Numbered from the stretch's first letter, positions 1,283-11,342 are shown. The stretch: DNA of 11,342 bases from Elusimicrobiota bacterium (GCA_003557485.1 PWOI01000109.1:1-11342); one strand, 5' to 3'. Notes: generated by a model from the letters alone, not told the origin. Made by a program: numbers and translations.

Positions 1283-1765
1283 CTACCTGAAATAATAGTA
1301 AACTCCGAAATTCACTACCCATTCAAAACCATCTACTGTTAATTCAAATTCGTCTTCCTCTAAATTTATAAACGCGGGACCGAAGTCCATTATTAAAGAA
1401 ATGTTATTTGCTAAATAGTATTCCCCGCCCAAAAAAGGATAGGCGATAAACCCGCTTCCTTCAATATCATCGGAGTTAAAGAGAACATAGTCCAATTCCA
1501 GCCCGGCAAACGGAATAAGCTGCGAAGACGGGTTAAAGTTGTAATACCCTCTTGCTCCGTATATCTGGACACCTTTGTCAAATGCTCCTCTTGCTTCTAC
1601 TGAAATTTCTTCTGTCAGATCACATTTTATTCCAAGGTAAGGATAACCGATACCGAAAGAAAGTTTATCTACAAATTCTCCGGCATGCGCCCCTGCCGAA
1701 AAGATAGACAATAAAAAAACTATTTGAAAAATTGTTATTTTTTTCTTCATATTAGTTATGAGCAT
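1283..1765 (-). CDS. small outer-membrane beta-barrel-like protein
   Basis: The 160-residue product has a Sec signal peptide (MKKKITIF..., cleavage likely after AHA at 28). It then shows alternating polar/aromatic stretches typical of short membrane beta strands: LSFGIGYPYLGI, ISVEARGAF, VQIYGARGYYNF, FAGLELDYVLF, AYPFLGGEYYLA, ISLIMDFGPAF, WVVNFGVYYYF. It ends in YYYFR, close to the aromatic C-terminal signature of barrels inserted by the Bam machinery. Size suits an eight-stranded OmpA/OmpX-like barrel. Two starts are possible: ATG at 1765 after a purine-rich AGAAAGAGAG, or ATG at 1750 (MKKK), which gives a more classical signal peptide but has no SD. It is the first gene of an operon with the 304-residue secreted protein. 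Family membership is inferred from pattern, not from recognised homology. Confidence 0.75.
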   Translation of the reverse strand: MLITNMKKKITIFQIVFLLSIFSAGAHAGEFVDKLSFGIGYPYLGIKCDLTEEISVEARGAFDKGVQIYGARGYYNFNPSSQLIPFAGLELDYVLFNSDDIEGSGFIAYPFLGGEYYLANNISLIMDFGPAFINLEEDEFELTVDGFEWVVNFGVYYYFR

Positions 1766-1785: not shown

Positions 1786-1814
1786 ACCATAACAATTCAT
1801 CATAACGCTGTCAA
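1786..1814 (-). promoter_or_regulatory. sigma70-type promoter of the barrel operon
   Basis: On the minus strand TTGACA (1809-1814, perfect -35) is followed after exactly 17 nt by TATGGT (1786-1791, 4/6 -10). Transcription would start near 1779, giving a leader of about 14 nt before the ATG at 1765. The -35 box lies 18 bp from the edge of repeat R1, so the insertion boundary is immediately upstream of this promoter. Confidence 0.6.
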
Positions 1815-1831: not shown

Positions 1832-2013
1832 TGAAAGAAAAAAAGCTTTCCTGATTAGCAACCAGCCCTCTAAAGCAGCATTAACCCCGCAGAGACCAGA
1901 AAGAGCTGTATGGCATAAATTATACCCACTGTTTTCTTTACGCTGAAGGTTCTCTAAATAAGGGAGGATGACCTTTCAAAAGGCGCCGTAATACGGCAAG
2001 AAACATAAATAAC
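1832..2013 (-). repeat. R1: degenerate 3' end of a WecA-like gene, direct repeat
   Basis: The first 155 bp (1832-1986) match 4018-4172 with only about four substitutions and no gaps. Related copies lie at 6042-6195 and 9761-10084, all in the same orientation. Read on the minus strand, R1 encodes FLAVLRRLLKGHPPLFREPSA and then stops. This is the C-terminal region of the WecA/MraY-family glycosyltransferase fragment at 9761-10084, but with the loop after GHPP deleted and the frame lost. It is therefore a dead gene fragment. It separates the exported-protein operon from the abiE module, and with R2 it brackets that module. Confidence 0.9.
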
Positions 2014-2165
2014 GCTTACTCCTTTTTAGTTTTACCAATACGGAGCATACTCCATTTGGGTTAATTTGTCCCCCCACGGGAAAACCCACTTGCAAGAAAT
2101 ATGAATTAAGTATATTACTAATAGCCCTTACTGCCGATGTCTGCAAATGAAAGACTTAGCTGTTC

Positions 2166-2190
2166 AAGCGCTCAAAGAGTGCTTTTCCTT
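2166..2190 (+). terminator. orphan plus-strand terminator-like hairpin
   Basis: AAGCGCTC (2166-2173) pairs with GAGTGCTT (2177-2184) around an AAA loop: eight pairs, one of them G-U. The second arm runs straight into TTTTCCTT. This fits a Rho-independent terminator read on the plus strand. No plus-strand gene ends nearby, and on the minus strand the stem has a mismatch and no T-run, so it does not serve abiEii well. It may be left over from a lost gene. The rest of 2014-2290 holds no gene I can support. Confidence 0.45.
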
Positions 2191-2290
2191 AACGTCTCAA
2201 ACAGCATATTCCTTTCGGGGTATTTTGGCATATAAAAGCCGATACTCGTATAATTATGCGCATACGGGATAAAAGCCGAAAAAATATACT

Positions 2291-3145
2291 TTAAATATTT
2301 CCCAGTATCCTGTTAAACCTGCTGAATACTTTTTTAAGGCTGAAGGTTTCTCCGGTCCTGATTACCGGATATAACGCAGATTGCACTTGATTTTCAAGTG
2401 TGATAATATCCTCTGCGCCCAGTCCAAAATTAGTTTTATAGTCTCCGGAATAGTTTTCTTCCTTAAGCTTTCTATGAAACAACCTGAGAAAATCTTTATT
2501 CATAAAATTGAATTTTCTCTCTGATATTTTCCATAAGTCATAATAGTCTCTTATAGCGTAATCCAGCCTGGTGATCGAAGCTTTCAATTTCTCAGCAACA
2601 GCTTCGTTGAGGCTTAGCGTTAATATATTACCGGATGGAAGCAGCGGCTCACCGGTAAAAGGGTCTTTATAGAAATGATTAACCCTGTTAATTACCGGTT
2701 TATCTATTGGATACTGCCGCAACGATATTTCAAGTTTGATATACTCCTCTTTCTCAGTGATTACCGACGGATAACATATATCAAACACATATTGTGTGGA
2801 CTCGTTAAACCCCTCTCCCTCCGGGTTAGGGCTTTTCAGTTTTATTCTTTCAAGGAACTCCGGCATTTTTGACTTTATCGTTTTCATTGCCCGGGATCTT
2901 TTTCCCCTCGTCTCAAGCTCGTTTCCTTTAATATAACTGAAATCCAGGTCTTCACTCAATCTTGTATGGTTAAAATATATTTTATTCAACAGCGTGCCGC
3001 CTTTAAAAATAATATTACTGCTCAAGCCTGTATTCAGATTGTTCATTATTAAAGTCAAATAGAAATCCTTTTCAATCAACCTGGGGCTGAACTTATGCTG
3101 TTTTGCAACTGCCGGTATTATATCTCTCAGTTTTTCCCTATTCAT
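2291..3145 (-). CDS. abiEii: AbiEii-type nucleotidyltransferase toxin
   Basis: The product is 284 residues from ATG 3143-3145 (MNREKLRD). Conserved nucleotidyltransferase features are all visible: FKGGTLLNK (47-55), RLSEDLDFS (62-70) with the acidic catalytic pair, KLEIS (137-141) supplying a further carboxylate, EAVAEKLKA (181-189) and RDYYDLW (199-205). These match the AbiEii/AbiGii (PF08843) family, the toxin of type IV-class abortive-infection modules; studied relatives transfer nucleotides, in mycobacterial MenT to tRNA acceptor stems. An upstream in-frame ATG at 3226 would overlap the antitoxin gene by 89 nt. I prefer 3145 because it overlaps abiEi by only 8 nt (translational coupling) and begins where family homology begins. 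No catalytic residue appears lost, so it looks active. Its region is AT-rich compared with the genes further right, consistent with transfer. Confidence 0.9.
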   Translation of the reverse strand: MNREKLRDIIPAVAKQHKFSPRLIEKDFYLTLIMNNLNTGLSSNIIFKGGTLLNKIYFNHTRLSEDLDFSYIKGNELETRGKRSRAMKTIKSKMPEFLERIKLKSPNPEGEGFNESTQYVFDICYPSVITEKEEYIKLEISLRQYPIDKPVINRVNHFYKDPFTGEPLLPSGNILTLSLNEAVAEKLKASITRLDYAIRDYYDLWKISERKFNFMNKDFLRLFHRKLKEENYSGDYKTNFGLGAEDIITLENQVQSALYPVIRTGETFSLKKVFSRFNRILGNI

Positions 3146-3941
3146 TGATAATAAGGCCCCACTCCCTGCTAAGTTTTCCTTTGCGGCTTTTGTTCTCCCT
3201 GTTAAGCGCAACATAGGTGTTTTCATTTCCGATGTTATTCCTGAGCCTGTTTATCAGTTTCTTCTCCATCCCCGCATTTTCTATAATATATCCCGCTCTT
3301 TTCAATACGGCCTTTACAGGGTATTTTACAAGGTAATCAACGAATTTTTCACTGTTAATTTTATTTATATTTTCACTTAATATTTTCCGCATAATATTAA
3401 ATGAACCCGGAGGGTTATCTACCAGATCCACCAGTGTGCGTTCCCTGTCACTTATTATTATTTCTTCTCCTTCAATATTTATTTTTTTTATGCCGTAGTA
3501 TTTTTCTTTCAAAATCTTCACCGCTTTATATTCCGTATCTGCTATTACCCTTGTTTTTGATTTTTTTGTATTCAGGACATATACCTTTTGAGGCACCTGC
3601 TGGGTAAAGCCCCAGTAATTATACATTGTAAAATATCCTATATAATACGGCACTTCCCCTATCCAGTATTTTGCGGCTATAAATTCATTCGGGGCCCACA
3701 ACTGATTGGGAGCTGTTATCGGCACAATAAAATATTTACCCTTTTCTATCTGGAGCAGGCGCCCTTTTCTTTTAAGCTTATCCAGAATGTTATCTACTTT
3801 CCTTGGATTGTTAAATAGTTTAAGAGTAAAAGCTCTTGTTATAACTTTCTGCTTTTCATACCCGGCCCTTGAAATAAGATAAATTTCATCTTTAGAAAGG
3901 CCCTTATAAAAAGAATTTGTTTCCGGTTTATTGTTTTTCAT
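3138..3941 (-). CDS. abiEi: AbiEi-type antitoxin / transcriptional repressor
   Basis: The 267-residue protein has the AbiEi layout. An N-terminal winged helix-turn-helix (about 18-75) ends in a wing LKRKGRLLQIEKGKYFIVP. It is followed by the family block YYIGYFTMYNYWGFTQQVP (99-117) and QKVYVLNT, and then a basic C-terminal domain. Known AbiEi proteins bind inverted repeats in their own promoter and counter the AbiEii nucleotidyltransferase without a stable complex. Here it is the first gene of the pair, overlaps abiEii by 8 nt, and has a perfect palindrome between its promoter and start codon, which fits autoregulation. The SD is weak (AAGAG about 8 nt before ATG). The gene is AT-rich: one 60-bp stretch (3481-3540) is about 28% GC. 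Confidence 0.9.
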   Translation of the reverse strand: MKNNKPETNSFYKGLSKDEIYLISRAGYEKQKVITRAFTLKLFNNPRKVDNILDKLKRKGRLLQIEKGKYFIVPITAPNQLWAPNEFIAAKYWIGEVPYYIGYFTMYNYWGFTQQVPQKVYVLNTKKSKTRVIADTEYKAVKILKEKYYGIKKINIEGEEIIISDRERTLVDLVDNPPGSFNIMRKILSENINKINSEKFVDYLVKYPVKAVLKRAGYIIENAGMEKKLINRLRNNIGNENTYVALNRENKSRKGKLSREWGLIINE

Positions 3942-3948
3942 TATAATT

Positions 3949-3967
3949 ACTCTTACTTTTTAAGAGT
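3949..3967. promoter_or_regulatory. perfect inverted-repeat operator of abiE
   Basis: ACTCTTA (3949-3955), a 5-bp spacer, then TAAGAGT (3961-3967) form a perfect 7+7 palindrome. It lies 10-28 nt downstream of the predicted transcription start and 7 nt before the abiEi start codon. That is where an AbiEi-type autorepressor would bind. The assignment to AbiEi is inferred from position and from the known behaviour of the family. As RNA, the same palindrome could also occlude the ribosome binding site. Confidence 0.65.
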
Positions 3968-3983
3968 TACGTCAACAATATAC

Positions 3984-4012
3984 ATAATAAGCTACGGGCA
4001 GGATTTTGTCAA
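3984..4012 (-). promoter_or_regulatory. strong sigma70-type promoter of abiEi-abiEii
   Basis: On the minus strand a perfect -35 box TTGACA (4007-4012) is followed after 17 nt by TATTAT (3984-3989, 5/6 match). The predicted start is near 3977, leaving about 36 nt of leader that contains the operator palindrome. The -35 begins only 5 bp from repeat R2, so the module carries its own promoter right up to the repeat boundary. Confidence 0.75.
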
Positions 4013-4017
4013 GTATA

Positions 4018-4179
4018 TGAAAGAAAAAACGCTTTCCTGATTAGCAACCAGCCCTCTAAAGCAGCATTAACCCCGCAGAGACCAGAAAGAGCTGTATGGC
4101 ATAAATTATAACCACTGTTTTCTTTACGCTGAAGGTTCTCTAAATAAGGGAGGATGCCCTTTCAAAAAGCGCATTAATA
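4018..4179 (-). repeat. R2: degenerate 3' end of a WecA-like gene, direct repeat
   Basis: R2 is nearly identical to R1 over 155 bp (4018-4172 versus 1832-1986, about four differences, no indels) and in the same orientation. It carries the same internal deletion in the WecA-like coding sequence. Homology stops near 4179, within the codons for the AVLRRLL segment, earlier than in R1, R3 or R4. The winged-helix gene ends only 30 bp further on. R1 and R2 bracket the abiE module; R2 and R3 bracket the second nucleotidyltransferase module. Confidence 0.9.
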
Positions 4180-4209
4180 TTTCAGGACTATTATTAAAAG
4201 TTTCGGTTT

Positions 4210-5247
4210 CTATGACTGCTCCAGTATCTTGGAGATAAACTCCTTAAATTCTTTTTCATATTTCCGGGGCGGAATATTCGGCCCGGGAAACGGAGGCAGT
4301 TCCATCTCGCTTTCCATTAATCTTTTAACTATTGTATCCATTGACTGGCGCATTTTAGAGCTTCTGATATAATCCGAATCCGTTTCACTGATATTATTCA
4401 GTAAGCTGAGAACTCCGGATAACGATTCATACATCGCTATCCAGTTTATCCACTCAGGCGGCCGGGTTTCTTCAATATCAATATCAAGGAGGAACTTCCA
4501 CCATTTACCCTGAGAAAGCCGGTACTCTTTTTTTCTTTTACCCGGCCTGCCCTCCAGAACCAGCCCTGACCCTGCAAGGTCTATAAGAGCATCCTGCGTT
4601 CCTCTGACGGAGAGTCCTATCGCATCTGCGACCCGGCTGGGATGCCCCCAATCGTGCGTCATAAGATACAGTATACATTCAGCCCTGCTGCCTGTACCCA
4701 GCAATGACCTCAGCATAAACCTGATATTAGAGGGTTTTTTAGGATTTGCCTTCTTTGATTTTCCGCTTGCGCTAAAAACCGGCCGGCTTAAAGCGTATTC
4801 AGAAAATATATCATCTTCCCCCCCTATAACCGGATAATCTTTATTATCCCTGGTTTTAAATAAAATCTCTTTCTTATCTATGCCTTTATTCCTGCCGCAC
4901 CTGCTCAAAGACTGCCATTTTCTGCGGTATGATTTTGCCTCTTTCATAAGAATAGCAGCAACAGCCCCTAAAAGAGCCTGCGTCCCGGGATTCCTGCTTT
5001 TTATTATCCCCCTCAAGCGCTGGATATCCATAACCCCTCCGTTTTTTATCAGCCAGTCTATAATCTCATCAAAAAGCCTGGGGTCATACCTTGCCGCCTC
5101 AAGAGAAAAAACCAGCAGGGCTTCCGGATCCAGTATCCTCTTATATTCCCCGGCCCCGCTGCCGGAGAGGCCCATAGCGGACCACTGCCTCCAGAGCAAA
5201 TCCAGAACGCCGTCAATAAAGTATTCTCTAAATTCGGTCTGCGACAT
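4210..5247 (-). CDS. winged-helix protein partnered with a nucleotidyltransferase (unknown function)
   Basis: This 345-residue soluble protein is not one I can name. Its N-terminal part (1-110) is helical, with motifs WRQWSAMGL (19-27), DPEALLVFSLEAARYDPRLFDEI (40-62) and DIQRLRGIIKSRN. A low-complexity basic linker (about 105-175) leads to a winged helix-turn-helix (about 176-250) with recognition region RVADAIGLSVRGTQDALIDL and wing GLVLEGRPGKRKKEYRL. The C-terminus is charged and helical. It overlaps the upstream nucleotidyltransferase gene by 20 nt, so the two are co-translated. By analogy with AbiEi, a likely role is DNA-binding antitoxin/autorepressor, with the palindrome at 5924-5960 as candidate site; this is inference. 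The order (enzyme first, HTH second) is the reverse of abiE. The SD is poor (GGGG 7 nt upstream), as expected for coupled translation. Confidence 0.8.
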   Translation of the reverse strand: MSQTEFREYFIDGVLDLLWRQWSAMGLSGSGAGEYKRILDPEALLVFSLEAARYDPRLFDEIIDWLIKNGGVMDIQRLRGIIKSRNPGTQALLGAVAAILMKEAKSYRRKWQSLSRCGRNKGIDKKEILFKTRDNKDYPVIGGEDDIFSEYALSRPVFSASGKSKKANPKKPSNIRFMLRSLLGTGSRAECILYLMTHDWGHPSRVADAIGLSVRGTQDALIDLAGSGLVLEGRPGKRKKEYRLSQGKWWKFLLDIDIEETRPPEWINWIAMYESLSGVLSLLNNISETDSDYIRSSKMRQSMDTIVKRLMESEMELPPFPGPNIPPRKYEKEFKEFISKILEQS

Positions 5248-5827
5248 CGCTGAACCCCAATTCCCTTAATAAATCAACCAGGATAACTTTAAAGCCTTCG
5301 GAAACATCATGCGTCATTGCCCATAACGCCGCCGATTCAATCTCACCTGAAGACGGCGATAAGGCCTTTAAATCATCATAATGTTTTCCGGCTCCCTGAT
5401 CTGCTGCAGCATACAGCTTGAAATGTATTTGATCATACCTCCCGATATAATGAACGCGAAGGCTTTCACCGTATGTACGGGTCTCGACCCTTTCCATTAG
5501 CCCCCGGGGCATCCCGAAATCCATCATTGAGGACGGCTCATTGTTTATCCATCTGTCATTCAGATTAAAATCCTTTTTTACTTTTTCCGCTGCCGAAAAA
5601 AGCAGAGAACCAAGTGACTCCGCCTTATGCAAAACAGTTTCTCCACTGCTGTTTTTACCGGCAAAAGCAACAATATCAATATCCATAGTAGCGCGGGCAA
5701 TATAGCCAAGAACACTGAGCGCGGCTCCGCCGCATACAACTATCTCAATACTGCCTGCGCCCGCTTCCTGCAGCTGCTCAGCAAGCGCGCTTAGAATTGT
5801 CTCAATATCATTCCTGTTTTGGAACAT
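5228..5827 (-). CDS. DUF6036-like nucleotidyltransferase (putative toxin)
   Basis: From ATG 5825-5827 (SD AAAGGG, 7 nt spacing) the product is 199 residues. The nucleotidyltransferase core is clear: VVCGGAALSVLGYIARATMDIDIVAF (30-55) gives the GG loop and the D-x-D pair (D49, D51). A later block IHFKLYAA...KHYDDLKAL (134-156) matches the K-L-x-A and (R/H)xxDDL elements of AbiEii/DUF6036-type enzymes. An in-frame TTG at 5878 would add 17 residues (MKRLMMHRN...) but has no SD and those residues do not look conserved. Members of this broad family modify RNA or proteins with nucleotides; the target here is unknown. It is the first gene of a two-gene unit with the overlapping winged-helix protein, so a type IV-like toxin-antitoxin role is inferred. 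The catalytic motif is intact. Confidence 0.85.
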   Translation of the reverse strand: MFQNRNDIETILSALAEQLQEAGAGSIEIVVCGGAALSVLGYIARATMDIDIVAFAGKNSSGETVLHKAESLGSLLFSAAEKVKKDFNLNDRWINNEPSSMMDFGMPRGLMERVETRTYGESLRVHYIGRYDQIHFKLYAAADQGAGKHYDDLKALSPSSGEIESAALWAMTHDVSEGFKVILVDLLRELGFSDVADRI

Positions 5828-5887
5828 AGAATACCCTTTATTAATTGATCTATTTCTGTGCATCATCAACCGTTTCAATCTAAAGTT

Positions 5888-5916
5888 ATAATAATATGTT
5901 TTAATTAAAAAATCAA
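5888..5916 (-). promoter_or_regulatory. probable promoter of the NTase/winged-helix module
   Basis: On the minus strand TTGATT (5911-5916, 4/6) is followed after 17 nt by TATTAT (5888-5893, 5/6). Transcription would begin about 55 nt before the preferred start codon. The region is extremely AT-rich, so other -10-like hexamers exist, for example TATAAA reaching into the adjacent palindrome, and the exact start is uncertain. Confidence 0.5.
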
Positions 5917-5923
5917 GCTATTT

Positions 5924-5960
5924 TATAGTTTAACTTCAAATTATTTGAAGTTATACTATA
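5924..5960. promoter_or_regulatory. 37-bp near-perfect palindrome upstream of the NTase module
   Basis: TATAGT-t-T-AACTTCAAA, a 3-bp centre, then TTTGAAGTT-A-t-ACTATA form an inverted repeat with 16 of 17 positions matching per arm. The inner 9+9 core is perfect. It lies just upstream of the candidate -35, or over it if the alternative promoter is used. The size suits a dimeric winged-helix regulator, and the obvious candidate is the module's own 345-residue protein. A role as a recombination or end sequence of the module is an alternative, but no second copy is present in the window. Confidence 0.7.
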
Positions 5961-6041
5961 TTTTCCTGCCAGGCATTTACTCTTTTCAAAATTATACCGG
6001 GGAGATCATAGCAGTCTCCGGAATATTCATCCGTTAACCGG

Positions 6042-6195
6042 TCACCGCAGCAGCATCACCCCTGAGGTAACAAGCAGTAACTGTATAAGATAACTTCTAA
6101 CCACTGTTTTCTTCACGCTTAAGGTTCTCTAAATAAGGGAGGATGCCCTTTCAAAAGGCGCCTTAATACGGCTATAAACATATCAATGACCGGGG
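6042..6195 (-). repeat. R3: mosaic 3' end of a WecA-like gene, direct repeat
   Basis: On the minus strand, 6195 to about 6120 encodes PVIDMFIAVLRRLLKGHPPLFREP and then stops, with the same internal deletion as R1 and R2. The following segment (6042-6119) still reads as intact C-terminus, SVKKTVVRSYLIQLLLVTSG to a TGA. The core around 6099-6170 is almost identical to R1/R2, whereas the distal C-terminal part is only about 70% similar. This abrupt change suggests recombination between paralogous copies. R3 divides the NTase module from the flavoprotein/helicase genes. Confidence 0.85.
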
Positions 6196-6316
6196 TTTAG
6201 CAAAAGAAGTATGCCGTAAGATACCCGGAAGTGATATGAGAAACCATCCGGGATCTGAGTGGTATAAAAGGTCTTATGTGAGAGGCGCCGGCTTAACGGT
6301 AGGAGTCCGCGAAGAA
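6196..6316. other. short spacer between R3 and the flavoprotein gene
   Basis: WecA-like homology ends abruptly at 6195/6196, where the coding frame that continues in R4 meets a stop, so this is a junction. The next 121 bp contain no RBS-supported gene and no convincing terminator for the flavoprotein gene. A plus-strand frame is open across the region, but I do not recognise its translation and it continues antisense into the flavoprotein gene. Together with 5828-6041 (promoter, palindrome and about 80 bp of unassigned AT-rich DNA) this accounts for the 489-bp gap between protein genes. Confidence 0.5.
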
Positions 6317-7456
6317 TTAAATCCGGGGGCGCGGACCGGATCCTTCAGGCCGGCTTTGCAAATGTTTTTTCTTCTTTAATTCAGCTGCCTCAAACTCTGA
6401 TACAAGCTCCCTGAAAAGGTCTTTTACAGATATTATTTCCCTGACCAGGTGCGCGTTCTTTCCCGCGAAGGCAAACCCCTCATCCATATTTCCCCTGCAG
6501 GCCCGGGTAAGGGCAAGGGCGATACAGTAAAAGGCTTTTGAAAAATTGCAGCTCTTGAGACACCGGCAGGGACAGGAGAACTTAACCCTGTGACCTGCTT
6601 CTATTCTTTTTAAAAAATCATTTTTTATAACCCGGCCCGGAAGCCCCACAGGGGAGTTTATTATGGCAATATCCTCTTTCCGGCTTTTCAGGTAACTTTC
6701 TTTGAAACCCTGCGCGGCGTCGCATTCATAGGTTGCAACAAAACGCGTTCCCATCTGAACCCCGGAGACCCCCGTTTTCAGTATGCGGTATATATCGGCT
6801 CCGGAATAAATCCCCCCGGCCGCAATTACAGGGATCCTCTTATCATATTTCTTCTCATACCCGGAGATTATACCGACAACTTCCGGCGCTATTGATTCAA
6901 GCTGATACTCAGGCATCTCGAGCTGTTCTTCCGTAAACCCCAGGTGCCCGCCGGCCTCAGGCCCCTCGACAACTACTGCGTCAGGAATATGGGAATATCT
7001 TTTATCCCATGAATTAAATATGATCTTCGCGGCCCTGGCGGATGAGACAATCGGGGCAAATTTCGTATGCGAATTTTTCACCGTCCCGGGGCTCACTCCT
7101 TCAGGGATCTTAAGGGGAAGCCCCGCGCCTACAAAAACAATATCCACTTTTTCATCGTAAGCGGTTTTAAAAAGCTCGTCGTAGTCGGAAAGGGCGACCA
7201 TAAGGTTAACCCCGATAACCCCTTCCGTCTTTTCTCTCGTCTTCCTGATTTCCCTTATCAGGCACCGCCTGTTAGCTTTCATAAAACTGGAAAAGAAATC
7301 AGTTTCAAGCATCCCTATTCCGGTAGCGGATATCACCCCTATGCCTCCGGCATCGGCTACAGCAGAGGCCAGGGACGACCGTGAGATACCTACACCCATT
7401 CCTCCCTGTATTACTGGAAGTTCTGCTCTCAAACCCCCAATACTTAAACTTTTCAT
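6317..7456 (-). CDS. FMN-dependent NPD/FabK-type flavoprotein (nitronate monooxygenase family)
   Basis: The 379-residue protein is a TIM-barrel flavoprotein of the 2-nitropropane dioxygenase family. It shows the N-terminal FMN loop VIQGGMGVGIS (15-25), VVVEGPEAGGHLGF (161-174) with the conserved His171, AAGGI (212-216) and VQMGTRF (233-239) for the FMN phosphate. Family members oxidise nitronates (nitronate monooxygenase) or reduce enoyl-ACP (FabK); sequence alone does not decide. An insertion near the C-terminus has a tight cysteine cluster, C295, C297, C299 and C303 with C311 and C320, typical of an anaerobe-rich subclade that could hold a metal or Fe-S centre (inference). The last 20 or so residues are a basic, Pro/Gly-rich tail. 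The SD is GGAGG with 8 nt spacing. It lies 27 nt after the helicase gene, so the two are probably co-transcribed. Confidence 0.88.
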   Translation of the reverse strand: MKSLSIGGLRAELPVIQGGMGVGISRSSLASAVADAGGIGVISATGIGMLETDFFSSFMKANRRCLIREIRKTREKTEGVIGVNLMVALSDYDELFKTAYDEKVDIVFVGAGLPLKIPEGVSPGTVKNSHTKFAPIVSSARAAKIIFNSWDKRYSHIPDAVVVEGPEAGGHLGFTEEQLEMPEYQLESIAPEVVGIISGYEKKYDKRIPVIAAGGIYSGADIYRILKTGVSGVQMGTRFVATYECDAAQGFKESYLKSRKEDIAIINSPVGLPGRVIKNDFLKRIEAGHRVKFSCPCRCLKSCNFSKAFYCIALALTRACRGNMDEGFAFAGKNAHLVREIISVKDLFRELVSEFEAAELKKKKHLQSRPEGSGPRPRI

Positions 7457-7483
7457 TTCTTACCCTCCGCCTTAAGACAGATA

Positions 7484-8902
7484 CTATCTGCCGGACTGCC
7501 TTTTCCCGCCGGATCTGGCTGTTTCAACCAGCGGGCGTCTTCCCCGTCTTTTTTCTCTGAATTTTTCCAGGATGACTTCCCCTTCTTCCGAAGATACGGT
7601 TACAAAGGAAAATTTCCTGCACATATCCACCCCGGTTATAACCCCGGGCGGGATCCCTGAACTTTCTTCAAGGAAATCAGTTAACCCCTGTTCATTAAGC
7701 CCGTCTTTTTTTCCCTTTGCTATAAACAAGCGGATTTCACCTGTTTTACTTTTCCTTTTCTTGGGGATATTTCCGGAAACAGGTTTACTTTCAGGAGGTC
7801 TTTTCTTACTTATCCGGGCAGAAGTGATCCTTTTAATTAATCCCATCTTTTTATACTCGGAAGGAGTGACAAAAGTAACCGCGATACCAGTATTTCCGGC
7901 CCTGCCTGTCCTTCCTATGCGGTGAACATAGGCATCGGGGTTCTGGGGTATTGAGTAATTTATCACGTGGGTCAGGTTCTCCACGTCAATCCCCCTGGCG
8001 GCCACATCAGTGGCAACCAGGACCTGGGTCTGAGCTTTCCTGAACCTCTTGAGGATGCGCTCCCTTTGATTCTGCGATTTATCCCCGTGAAGGCCTTCCG
8101 CTTTATATCCCCCGTCTTTGAGTTTTCGGGCCAGGTTATCAACTCCCCTTTTTGTCCGGCAGAATACCAGTCCGTAAAAATCCGGCGTCATATCGATAAC
8201 CCCGGTCAGGGCTTTTAATTTGTCCCCTGCCTTCACTTCAAAGTATATCTGTTCTATATTCTGTAATGTGACCTCATTTTTAGTTTTTATATGCGTGTAA
8301 TTTTCATTCATAACCCTTGCGGCCAGGGATTTGATCCTCTTCGGCATTGTAGCGGAAAAAAATAATATATCCTTATTCTTTGAAGTTTTACTCATTATCT
8401 TTTCCACATCATCAATAAACCCCATATTCAGCATCTCATCGGCCTCGTCCAGGATAAAGTGCGTTATCCTGCTTATATCAAGCGTGCGCCTTTTGATATG
8501 GTCCAGGACTCTCCCGGGAGTCCCTACCACGAAAGACGCCCCTTTTTTCAGATCCCTGATCTGCTTCCCGATAGGCTGCCCCCCGTATATCGGAAAGGCT
8601 GAAAAAGACCGGTCCCCTTTTAACGAATTGATCTCTCCGCAGACCTGTATGGCAAGCTCCCGGGTTGGTGTCAGTATCATTACCTGCACGTGATCCCTGT
8701 CCTGTCTGAGTTTTTCTATAAGCGGAAGCGCGAAAGCCGCTGTCTTTCCCGTGCCGGTATGGGCCTGTCCGATAAGGTTCCCCTTATCGTTCAGCAAATG
8801 CGGGATTATCTGCTCCTGTATTCTGGTGGGCTCCCTGAAACCTCTTCTTGAGATTGCGCTTATTGAATTCTTTTCCAGCCCTAAATTTTCAAATGTTTTC
8901 AT
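7484..8902 (-). CDS. deaD: DEAD-box ATP-dependent RNA helicase with DbpA-type RNA-binding domain
   Basis: All helicase motifs are present in the 472-residue product: Q motif (F4...GFREPTRIQ), motif I AHTGTGKT (47-54), Ia PTREL (79-83), Ib TPGR (128-131), II DEAD (152-155), III SAT (183-185), V ATDVAARGID (297-306), VI HRIGRTGR (327-334). A basic linker leads to a compact C-terminal domain (about 389-448, RLFIAKGKKDGL...ITGVDMCRKFSFVTV) that matches the DbpA RNA-binding fold of the CsdA/DeaD and DbpA helicases, and a basic tail rich in Arg/Gly. The role is ATP-driven RNA unwinding in ribosome assembly or mRNA decay, often cold-induced. Start ATG 8902 has AAAGGA about 12 nt upstream. It is preceded by a 335-bp gap after the RRM gene, which could act as a long structured leader. 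DeaD versus DbpA assignment is moderate. Confidence 0.92.
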   Translation of the reverse strand: MKTFENLGLEKNSISAISRRGFREPTRIQEQIIPHLLNDKGNLIGQAHTGTGKTAAFALPLIEKLRQDRDHVQVMILTPTRELAIQVCGEINSLKGDRSFSAFPIYGGQPIGKQIRDLKKGASFVVGTPGRVLDHIKRRTLDISRITHFILDEADEMLNMGFIDDVEKIMSKTSKNKDILFFSATMPKRIKSLAARVMNENYTHIKTKNEVTLQNIEQIYFEVKAGDKLKALTGVIDMTPDFYGLVFCRTKRGVDNLARKLKDGGYKAEGLHGDKSQNQRERILKRFRKAQTQVLVATDVAARGIDVENLTHVINYSIPQNPDAYVHRIGRTGRAGNTGIAVTFVTPSEYKKMGLIKRITSARISKKRPPESKPVSGNIPKKRKSKTGEIRLFIAKGKKDGLNEQGLTDFLEESSGIPPGVITGVDMCRKFSFVTVSSEEGEVILEKFREKRRGRRPLVETARSGGKRQSGR

Positions 8903-9237
8903 AAAATTAAAAAGTCCTTTAAATTATTAGTCTATGTATGAAGATTACGGTAGGTTTTCTGCCGGTCCGACTGATCTTTATCGCCTGCGAAAAGGCCCTT
9001 TTCTGTAAAGGTCCCGCTTAATCTATATACAACCCTGCCCTTATCCGTATCGCGACCGGATATCTCAACCCAACCCTGTCTCCTAATCCCAGCCTGATAT
9101 CTCTTTTGCGTATTTCAACGCAGACTCAGCAGAGAAGCTCCTTTTCAATCTCACCGGGACTTAGGTTAAATCAGGTTTTAGGTAACCCCCGGGAGAGAAC
9201 TGCTTAAGTCTCTAACAGTTCGCTGCTCTGTCCGGAT
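8903..9237 (-). promoter_or_regulatory. 335-bp intergenic region / possible structured leader of deaD
   Basis: No gene is evident. On the minus strand (the sense of deaD) two mutually exclusive hairpins overlap at 8989-9011: GAAAAGG/CCTTTTC (8989-8995 with 8997-9003, one-base centre, so in practice a smaller stem) and CCTTT/AAAGG (8997-9001 with 9007-9011). Such alternatives are compatible with attenuation, and long 5' leaders are known for deaD and other cold-shock genes, but I see no clear promoter and no RNA family I recognise. This might simply be the end of the RRM transcript. Confidence 0.3.
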
Positions 9238-9531
9238 TTAATATCTGCTGCCGAAGCTGTCTCTATTGCGGTTATTATCCTGCTTAGGACGGGCTTCGTT
9301 TACTTTTAAACTGCGTCCTTCAAACTCCCTGTTGTTCAGCGCGTTTAACGCGTTTTGCGCATCCTCTGAACTGGAAAATTCAATAAACCCAAAACCCTTG
9401 GATTTATCCGTATATTTATCCATTATAACTACAGCGTCCTTAACTTCGCCGTGTTCGGCAAAAAGCTTCTGCAGCTGGTCGTTTGTTACTGAAAAATTCA
9501 AGTTTCCTACGTAAAGTTTTTTTCCCTGCAT
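9238..9531 (-). CDS. single-RRM RNA-binding protein
   Basis: The 97-residue protein is one RNA recognition motif. RNP2 is LYVGNL (6-11) and RNP1 is KGFGFIEF (45-52), with the aromatic RNA-stacking residues Y7, F47 and F49 in place. The rest follows the beta-alpha-beta-beta-alpha-beta plan (LKVNEARP closes the fold at about 75-82). A short Asn/Arg-rich tail (DNNRNRDSFGSRY) resembles the tails of cyanobacterial and other bacterial cold-inducible RRM proteins. The SD AAGGAGG 8 nt before the ATG is excellent. It lies upstream of deaD in the same direction, so the two may serve RNA remodelling together, probably as an RNA chaperone. The RNA target is unknown. Confidence 0.93.
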   Translation of the reverse strand: MQGKKLYVGNLNFSVTNDQLQKLFAEHGEVKDAVVIMDKYTDKSKGFGFIEFSSSEDAQNALNALNNREFEGRSLKVNEARPKQDNNRNRDSFGSRY

Positions 9532-9635
9532 TCTATTTTCCTCCTTAGTTTCGCAGCTTTAAATTATTTAATGAAAATAGAATTGAAGAAGAAGCGTATT
9601 TCCAGAAAAACAATAAATTGCTGATTCCTTTTTGA

Positions 9636-9664
9636 ACCATAGCATATAAAGAGATATAAAACAA
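9636..9664 (-). promoter_or_regulatory. candidate promoter of the RRM gene
   Basis: On the minus strand TTGTTT (9659-9664, 3-4/6) is followed after 17 nt by TATGGT (9636-9641, 4/6, the same -10 hexamer as the barrel operon). It would give a 5' leader of about 100 nt, a length often seen for cold-inducible RNA-binding proteins. Both boxes are imperfect and the region is AT-rich. Confidence 0.35.
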
Positions 9665-9669
9665 GACTG

Positions 9670-9701
9670 CAGAACCAGGGCCCCGGTCCGAAACGGTTCT
9701 G
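9670..9701. terminator. GC-rich hairpin between the WecA fragment and the RRM gene
   Basis: CAGAACC (9670-9676) pairs with GGTTCTG (9695-9701). The 18-nt loop is GC-rich and includes GGGCCCC. On the plus strand it is followed by ATTTTATC; on the minus strand by CAGTCTTGTTTTAT. It lies 60 nt beyond the stop codon of the WecA-like fragment, which fits a remnant of that gene's terminator, and it insulates the RRM promoter just downstream. Confidence 0.4.
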
Positions 9702-9760
9702 ATTTTATCAACATTATTCCCTATAATCACCAAAAACTTTGCCGGTTAACAAATAACCCT

Positions 9761-10084
9761 CTAAAGCAGCGCTACCCCCGCAGAGACCAGCAATGCCTGT
9801 ATAATATAACTTATAATCACTGTTTTCTTTACGCTGTATTTTCTGTGAATCAGGTCATAAAAATGGGACCTGTCTCCCATAAAGGGAGGATGCCCTTTTA
9901 AAAGGCGCCTTAATACGGCAATAAACATATCAATAACCGGGGCTCCCAGGAGAAGGGTTGCCGCTATAAGGCCAATAAGCTTACCGGGGGAAGCAGATAC
10001 CACCCGGAGCGCCATATAACCGCAGATAAACCCTATCCAGCCGCTTCCCAAATCTCTCAGGAAGACCTTTTTTACTTGATACGC
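9761..10084 (-). pseudogene. R4: 3' fragment of a WecA/MraY-family glycosyltransferase gene
   Basis: About 108 codons stay open from an in-frame stop (TAG, 10085-10087) to TAG at 9761-9763. Recognisable family sequence runs from VFLRDLGSGWIGFICGYMAL, the counterpart of the GDxGS-xxxGF membrane motif, through two hydrophobic helices, VIDMFIAVLRRLLKGHPPF, the loop MGDRSHFYDLIHRKYSVKK and a last helix. Intact polyprenyl-phosphate sugar-phosphate transferases of this group have about 320-360 residues, so only the C-terminal third remains. There is no SD; a TTG at 10051 is the only near-start. The first Gly of the GD motif is Arg here. It is the least altered member of the R1-R4 repeat family and retains the loop that the others have lost. 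The break lies near 10070, just before the divergently oriented ATPase gene. Confidence 0.8.
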
Positions 10085-10164
10085 CTATAATAACATACTG
10101 AAAATATAGAGTATATTGGATAACATTCTCTCTGACATATTTGCGAAACTGGGGTACGCTGTCC

Positions 10165-10190
10165 TTGACTTTTTTATAAAAAAGTATTAA
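10165..10190 (+). promoter_or_regulatory. promoter/palindrome region of the AAA ATPase gene
   Basis: The -35-like TTGACT (10165-10170) overlaps a perfect 18-bp AT palindrome, ACTTTTTT-AT-AAAAAAGT (10168-10185), followed by TATTAA (10185-10190). The spacing to TATTAA is short (14 nt), so the true -10 is uncertain. The palindrome could be an operator, or simply an A/T tract. The remainder of 10085-10164 shows nothing I can assign. Confidence 0.35.
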
Positions 10191-10236
10191 TTTTGGAAAA
10201 GCAAATGCCATATTTAGACCAAAAAAGGAATTACCT

Positions 10237-11342
10237 ATGCAAGATTTAAAGAAAAGATACTTAAAGGATTGCGACAGCAGTTTCTTTCTCTTTGGCCCCC
10301 GCGGTACGGGAAAATCAACCTGGCTTAAGGAAAAATTCCGGGACCGCATCTATATTGACCTTTTAGATCCTGTCAATTACAGGAGATTCAGCGCCAGGCC
10401 GGAAAGTTTAAAATATATAGTCGATGGAAACCCGGAAAAAAATCTTATTATTATTGATGAGATACAAAAAGTTCCGCAACTGCTGGATATGGTACATAAA
10501 CTGATGGAAGATAAACATGAAAAGAAATTCATTCTTACAGGTTCCAGCGCAAGAAAACTTAAAAGACACGGGATAGACCTCCTTGCCGGGCGGGCGGTTC
10601 TAAGGAATATGTTCCCTTTTATGGCTTCCGAACTGGGAACTGATTTCAGTTTTGACAAATCTCTTCAAACAGGGCTCCTGCCAGTAATATATTTTGCCAG
10701 AAAACCCGTTGAAGCTTTGAAAGCCTATCTTGCTCTTTATATAAAAGAAGAGGTCCAGATGGAGGGTTTTGTCAGGGACATAGGCGCTTTTTCCCGCTTT
10801 CTGGAAGCGTCGAGCTTCTCCCATGCCTCTGTTCTCAATGCCAGCAGCATTGCCCGGGAATGCGAGGTCAAAAGAAAAACCGTAGAAAATTACCTGTCCC
10901 TGATGGAAGACCTTATGCTCTCTTTTCAGTTGCCGGTATTCACAAAAAAAGCTAAAAGGTCAATGATTAAGCATAATAAGTTTTTTATTTTTGATACAGG
11001 AGTTTTCAGAAGGTTAAGACCTGCCGGACCCCTTGACCGGGCAGGTGAAATAGAAGGCCCGGCGCTTGAAGGACTGGTTGCCCAGCACCTGTATGCCTGG
11101 ACAAACTACAGCGCAAACGGCGCTGAACTTTTTTTCTGGCGTACCCTTGCCGGTTCTGAGATAGATTTTGTTTTGTACGGTAAAGACCTGTTCTGCGCAA
11201 TTGAAGTCAAAAACAGAGCCCGGCTCGACAATGTGAACTTCAGAGCTTTTAAATCATTTGAAAAGGATTACCCCCAGGCAGAAAAAATTCTTTTATACAG
11301 GGGCACAGAGCGCCTTAAAAAGGGAGGGGTACTTTGTCTTCC
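10237..11342 (+). CDS. AAA ATPase with DUF4143 domain (partial at right edge)
   Basis: The frame is open from ATG 10237 (SD AAAGGA, 9 nt spacing) to the window end: 368 codons, probably lacking only the last few to about 20 residues compared with the usual 380-400. Residues 20-27 GPRGTGKS are Walker A, 70-75 LIIIDE with following IQKVP are Walker B, and ILTGSSARKLK (99-109) with AGRA (117-120) is the sensor region typical of this ATPase group. The C-terminal DUF4143 part includes a winged-helix-like stretch (SIARECEVKRKTVENYLSLMED) and a PD-(D/E)xK-like end: E278, GSEIDF (D310), then AIEVKN (E323, K325). Such proteins are abundant and often multicopy in bacteria and archaea; their function is poorly known, and nuclease or defence-related roles are only suggested. 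It is the sole plus-strand gene here and faces away from the WecA fragment. Confidence 0.9.
   Translation, partial: MQDLKKRYLKDCDSSFFLFGPRGTGKSTWLKEKFRDRIYIDLLDPVNYRRFSARPESLKYIVDGNPEKNLIIIDEIQKVPQLLDMVHKLMEDKHEKKFILTGSSARKLKRHGIDLLAGRAVLRNMFPFMASELGTDFSFDKSLQTGLLPVIYFARKPVEALKAYLALYIKEEVQMEGFVRDIGAFSRFLEASSFSHASVLNASSIARECEVKRKTVENYLSLMEDLMLSFQLPVFTKKAKRSMIKHNKFFIFDTGVFRRLRPAGPLDRAGEIEGPALEGLVAQHLYAWTNYSANGAELFFWRTLAGSEIDFVLYGKDLFCAIEVKNRARLDNVNFRAFKSFEKDYPQAEKILLYRGTERLKKGGVLCL

Follow-up and report, generated by a model that had tools for sequence, protein, structure and literature searches.

In this work we have analysed an 11,342-nt stretch of DNA (hereafter the window), which is the complete contig C50 of an Elusimicrobiota bacterium (GCA_003557485.1 PWOI01000109.1). 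It carries four copies, R1 to R4, of a repeat derived from the 3' end of a WecA-like gene, and these copies separate successive gene units, some of which fit modules of the toxin-antitoxin (TA) type. Our reading is that R1-R4 are probably the scars of successive insertions, each of which duplicated its target. The assembly to which the contig belongs is metagenome-derived and comprises 2.07 Mb in 212 contigs, with a completeness of 86.6%; because the window is an entire contig, neither of its flanks could be extended.

A repeat from the 3' end of a WecA-like gene

A repeat search of the window found one direct-repeat family with four copies in a single orientation, at 1832-1993, 4018-4179, 6007-6168 and 9723-9884. 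All four lie between units, in the order R1-abiE-R2-nucleotidyltransferase (NTase)/winged-helix protein-R3-(nitronate monooxygenase (NMO), deaD, RRM)-R4-ATPase. A preliminary description of this DNA, made from the sequence alone, had proposed such an arrangement and had traced the repeats to the 3' end of a WecA-like gene, and both proposals are borne out. A minus-strand open reading frame (ORF) of R4 (9761-10051) is open for 96 codons, aligns with the final ~95 residues of WecA-type polyprenyl-phosphate transferases and has its stop close to the natural C-terminus of these enzymes. The pairwise alignments of the copies have E values from 1e-8 to 1e-61 and are far from chance. R1 and R2, the latter being the shortest copy, are 96% identical over 162 nt, with a longest common exact run of 80 nt; R1 and R3 are 82% identical over 134 nt, and R2 and R4 are 78% identical over 123 nt and 91% over 34 nt. 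Outside the indel, R1 or R2 is ~78% identical to R4, and similarity falls like a ladder from R1-R2 (96%) through R2-R3 (82%) to R4. The indel consists of 31 nt of R4 that are missing from R1, R2 and R3 alike, and this deletion is a frameshift, so that it was an already dead fragment that was duplicated. R4 retains the older state, with the 31 nt present, which would give the order ((R1,R2),R3),R4.

Full copies of R are confined to C50: no further one was found in the 2.07-Mb assembly and none in the relatives, so R does not behave like a widespread repeat scattered without regard to gene boundaries. The exact junction pattern of R had no match in collections of genome contigs and viral contigs, nothing similar was found in plasmids or phages, and a comparison with Rfam gave no match. 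A profile of R run over 16 genomes returned the four window copies and one fragment in the genome G003. This fragment (C40, locus L032, 1501-1534) is a short intergenic piece of the same part of WecA, belongs to another family of the order and is flanked by peptidase-like and radical-SAM-like genes; its own low-scoring matches elsewhere looked like chance. Weak profile matches, such as those in G004:C190 (3.2e-4) and G008:C17 (4.7e-4), were not accepted as copies since no GT4 frame was seen in a listing of the long ORFs around them, the judgement being based on these ORFs. Where, then, is the gene from which R was derived? Its intact form is absent from the assembly, where three other GT4 genes occur, none of which is the parent; two of them match R4 at only 25-30%. 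The best match in other genomes, on a contig of a proteobacterial metagenome-assembled genome, is 42% identical. The intact parent gene could be missing from an assembly of this completeness.

Repeats around modules elsewhere in the genome

Contigs with AbiEii or DUF4143 genes were fetched, plus further contigs as controls. C50 was given and C172 was found via its ATPase gene; C141, C83, C124 and C134 were picked solely by gene family. One case is C172, which carries a copy of the window's ATPase (91% identical, the homology beginning at window position 10164). There the ATPase copy and HipBA are enclosed by a duplicate of the opening 43 nt of the phosphate-permease gene pit: the left copy follows directly on a glycosyltransferase gene, and the right copy is the start of an intact pit. 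On C124 the glycosyltransferase-pit junction is uninterrupted, with a single copy of the repeat and no insert, and when the flanks of C172 are joined with one repeat copy, 917 nt align to C124 at 86% identity. The duplicated pit start around the insert measures 43-46 bp, and it is the target's own sequence, not R. We also considered the left copy as a longer, decayed pit and rejected this, as the extra similarity was within the range of shuffles.

The ATPase copy on C172 also appears to have brought a piece of R with it. With the R2 end as a query against 584 kb of the genome's own sequence, both strands, the best match was at the 3' end of the C172 ATPase gene (33 of 43 positions, score 48 versus 42 for the next); the profile search did not report this 43-nt piece, and the claim is based on the pairwise score. 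Judging from this sequence match, the source of the copy was probably a locus with R after the ATPase, and a further R is therefore predicted beyond the right end of C50.

Other modules of the genome have other repeats. On C124 a DUF5615 gene is followed by a repeat of the cysN 3' end (54 nt), and an AAA_14-DUF4143 gene by one of a GT2 3' end (33 nt); a 136-nt repeat, 93% identical, flanks abiE on both sides on C141, and several repeats surround the MNT/HEPN and DUF4143 units of C83. The flanking repeats thus differ between insertions, also in length (120-162 nt for R, 54 for the cysN end, 33 for the GT2 end, 43-46 for the pit start and 136 on C141), and there is no fixed site. The WecA-like gene is accordingly not special as a target, since the ends of cysN and GT2, the start of pit and a tRNA-end-like sequence play the same part elsewhere. 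Repeats at unit boundaries were present on 6 of 10 contigs with TA-type genes versus 3 of 47 without (Fisher p = 4e-4), and in the latter three, judged by position, they look like paralogous genes or internal protein repeats. One of the six is C134, whose repeat (72%) found no support when flanks were scored directly. In this flank test, for which 500 nt on either side of each module were compared with 1,036 control intervals, 9 of 19 modules lay above the 99th percentile of the controls (0.2 expected; Mann-Whitney p = 6e-5), and 7 of 17 did so without the window (p = 6e-4); the p-values are optimistic because the modules are clustered and not fully independent, and the module list was compiled after the contig repeats had already been seen.

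These results also bear on how the insertions had been pictured before. The preliminary description had invoked elements that integrate into a gene's 3' end and bring a replacement, or else repeated homologous exchange at gene fragments. Insertion with duplication of a gene end is indeed the right class of event, and for a related insertion the filled and the empty site are both present, but replacement of a functional 3' end is not supported: R1-R3 are dead, no intact parent is found in the assembly and, as had been noted at the outset, no integrase is recognised among the ORFs of this contig of only 11.3 kb.

Further observations were made on the same contigs. The same MNT/HEPN unit, 91% identical, occurs on C141 (locus L140, 1976-3118) and C83 (locus L144, 339-1481), bordered on either side by a repeat core of 30-40 nt, which we take to resemble the 3' end of a tRNA; ARAGORN found no tRNA at this core. 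C83 (L144, 1461-3364) also encodes a large serine recombinase with a small partner gene, beside MNT/HEPN modules and near two inverted 188-nt copies (1523-1710 and 3480-3667). On C124 (locus L146, 15310-15370) the remnant of an MNT/HepT module lies upstream of a glycosyltransferase gene and matches an intact module at 17587-18230.

Units of the array

The features of the window are collected in Table 1. Most of the unit identities given in the preliminary description were recovered with Pfam and that of the RRM protein with NCBIfam, the putative winged-helix protein being the exception. The NTase and its partner are also side by side in the genome G008, and the genes for DeaD, the flavoprotein and the RRM protein are each in different surroundings among the relatives examined. 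While the AbiE and NTase units fit an addiction-type module, the NMO-deaD-RRM unit does not. Promoters had been placed next to all four repeats; the strongest minus-strand sigma-70-like boxes of our scan lie directly downstream of R2 and R1, and only weak matches were found at R3 and R4. Upstream of the NTase gene lies a near-perfect palindrome of 37 nt (5924-5960), possibly an operator, which occurs again at G000 C210:2835-2876, upstream of an unrelated gene. Close to the left contig end, positions 17-118 are 74-92% identical in the genomes G005, G006, G008 and G009, several of these matches being at contig ends, and resemble either the conserved end of a gene or a repeated element. Positions 175-227 recur close to the ends of contigs C171, C80, C145 and C127 of the same assembly, suggesting that the assembly was broken by an element present in several copies.

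Table 1. Features of the window, numbered from its first nucleotide
Feature	Position	Strand	Description
Outer-membrane beta-barrel-like protein	1283..1765	-	First gene left of R1; below Pfam cut-off
Promoter-like TTGACA/TATGGT	1786..1814	-	Extended -10; 18 bp from R1
R1	1832..2013	-	3' end fragment of WecA-like gene and downstream part; frameshifted via 31-nt deletion
AbiEii nucleotidyltransferase toxin	2291..3226	-	PF08843; Pfam, PADLOC
AbiEi antitoxin	3138..3941	-	PF09407; Pfam, PADLOC
Promoter-like TTGACA/TATTAT	3984..4012	-	5 bp from R2, upstream of abiE
R2	4018..4179	-	WecA-like 3' fragment, 96% identical to R1; 31-nt deletion as in R1
NTase partner	4210..5247	-	345 aa; no Pfam match; putative winged-helix protein of the preliminary description
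DUF6036/AbiEii-family nucleotidyltransferase	5228..5878	-	Pfam
R3	6049..6212	-	WecA-like 3' fragment, 82% identical to R1/R2; 31-nt deletion; 3' side more decayed
Nitronate monooxygenase/FabK-like flavoprotein (NMO)	6317..7456	-	Pfam
DEAD-box RNA helicase with DbpA domain (deaD)	7484..8902	-	Pfam
RRM RNA-binding protein	9238..9531	-	NCBIfam
R4	9725..10084	-	Least degraded copy; without 31-nt deletion; WecA/GT4-type gene truncated at 5' side
AAA_14-DUF4143 ATPase module	10164..11342	+	Gene from 10237, runs off contig; Pfam, PADLOC

Origin of the array and comparison with known systems

We hypothesize that the WecA-like gene was first reduced to a 3' fragment. DNA modules would then have entered at or beside this fragment, each entry leaving a direct R duplicate on its far side, and every new copy would again have been a target, so that the units became stacked. 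R would be a passive target and scar, later offering homology for recombination, and the joining itself might have occurred by staggered-end repair or by excision of circles and their reinsertion through ordinary recombination. We regard R as a scar, not a dedicated attachment site, because other contigs use different repeats and are without full R copies, and because the duplicate at the pit site is the target's own sequence. That the process seen on C172 and C124 also built the array of the window, in the order and by the joining proposed here, is what we infer from these parallels.

Several observations weigh against this explanation. No second strain or close relative with the locus was found, and hence no empty site of the window joined by R. 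The pair of C172 and C124 might represent paralogous loci, or the bin might combine different strains. No flanking repeat is seen at about half of the modules of the TA type, the clustering of modules flatters the flank test, as said above, and some repeats on C83 may be site-specific, given the serine recombinase there. The NMO-deaD-RRM unit is not TA-like and may have come to lie between R3 and R4 in some other way. Lastly, the core of R is better conserved than the remainder among R1-R3 (permutation p 0.0006 with a 60-nt window), which is unexpected for a pure scar; gene conversion between the copies or selection on the core could explain it.

Could the 60-70 bp core of R be instead an attachment site for cassette insertion and excision by an unseen recombinase, in the manner of an integron or an island? 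Such a site would suit the common orientation and boundary position of the copies, the conserved core in the dead R1-R3, the R end that travels with the ATPase copy in C172 and the large serine recombinase beside TA modules and repeats in C83. We nevertheless consider it unlikely, since no recombinase was found on C50, full R is absent from all other TA contigs examined, where different repeats occur, and the pit-site duplicate is not R. The copies also have no unusual fold on either strand (z between -1.5 and 1.4 versus shuffles, RNA parameters).

Host enzymes would suffice if circles consisting of a module plus R were excised by recombination between R copies and reinserted by a single crossover at homology, much as has been proposed for transposed Arabidopsis genes with genic flanking repeats (PMC2869330). 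Copies of 120-160 bp, with R1 and R2 nearly identical, do provide homology, but the longest exact run of R1 and R2 is just 80 nt and the pit target of the C172 insertion is without R, so that R-mediated homologous reinsertion fails there; as an account of the array this is quite unlikely. Plain segmental duplication followed by decay, in which a tandem duplication multiplied a stretch with the dead fragment and unrelated events later brought in the units, appears very unlikely to us: the ladder-like relatedness of the copies and their pseudogene-like decay speak for it, yet the repeat search found no other duplicated sequence of comparable length accompanying R between the units, and elsewhere in the genome TA modules are again associated with repeats, which there are unrelated to R. 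That repeats led the assembler to join unrelated contigs is most improbable even for a metagenome assembly of 212 contigs in which R1 and R2 share their 80-nt run, because the divergence of R3 and R4 is too great for an assembler to be misled by them, and because the filled pit site and the empty one lie on two different contigs whose flanks agree.

Insertion with target duplication is thus the explanation that we prefer for R1-R4. Perhaps it can be taken further: TA-type modules of this lineage may move as units that carry no recombinase of their own, may duplicate a long stretch of any gene end at which they insert, and may re-enter the same scar in a polar and stepwise manner, so that arrays would grow at one end, with the R core as the preferred entry point. 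We offer this wider scheme tentatively and find it rather doubtful as a whole.

The array recalls integron cassette arrays, in which modules stand in a row, each beside a similar site and in one orientation, the attC sites being structured and their use requiring IntI. Likewise, the window holds a row of modules next to similar sites of the same orientation; unlike in integrons, there is no attC-like fold at R (RNA parameters) and no integron integrase among the ORFs of C50. It differs from an integrative element at a gene's 3' end in that no intact target gene with a replaced 3' end was found in the assembly. Turnover of accessory genes without an integrase is shared with horizontal-transfer hotspots that lack mobile elements, where whole segments are exchanged by double recombination in the flanking core genes (PMC5635113), although that model would, we reason, leave no duplicated gene ends. 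Toxin modules in rows with repeated gene fragments are also known from orphan cdiA-CT/cdiI and rhs arrays (PMC3150448); there the fragments are of the toxin-delivery gene itself, whereas those of R come from an unrelated WecA-like gene. Transposed genes of Arabidopsis lie between direct repeats that consist mainly of genic sequence and have homology to the target site, for which Woodhouse et al. (2010, PMC2869330) favoured circles arising from tandem duplications. Moved genes between genic direct repeats of target origin are common to both cases, Arabidopsis being of course a eukaryote.

The closest parallel is the insertion of restriction-modification genes with long target duplication in Helicobacter pylori (Nobusato et al. 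2000, as cited in PMC3031569, PMC1643837 and PMC3874152). As these citing papers present it, the idea dates from 2000, when it was drawn from restriction-modification genes in the genomes of two Helicobacter, and its mechanism is unsettled; PMC3874152 describes such genes as moving without a known mobile element and the target duplications as long, variable and "in the order of 100 bp". So far as these accounts go, the two cases have in common modules of the addiction type (in the window the AbiE and NTase units), direct target duplications that are long and of variable length, and movement without a known mobile element; they differ in that the modules here are of the TA type and of the AAA_14-DUF4143 kind, in place of restriction-modification genes, and are stacked at one target. 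A narrow search of the literature gave no report of this pattern for TA modules. How TA and defence-type modules spread without a transposase or an integrase is an old question, and our results suggest that such survival modules can do so with no integrase of their own in the insert. A genome that has such repeats at roughly half of the modules sampled, together with a filled/empty pair and a stacked array, makes the idea testable by counting and by comparison of strains, and would widen long target duplication to TA modules and to an uncultured lineage.

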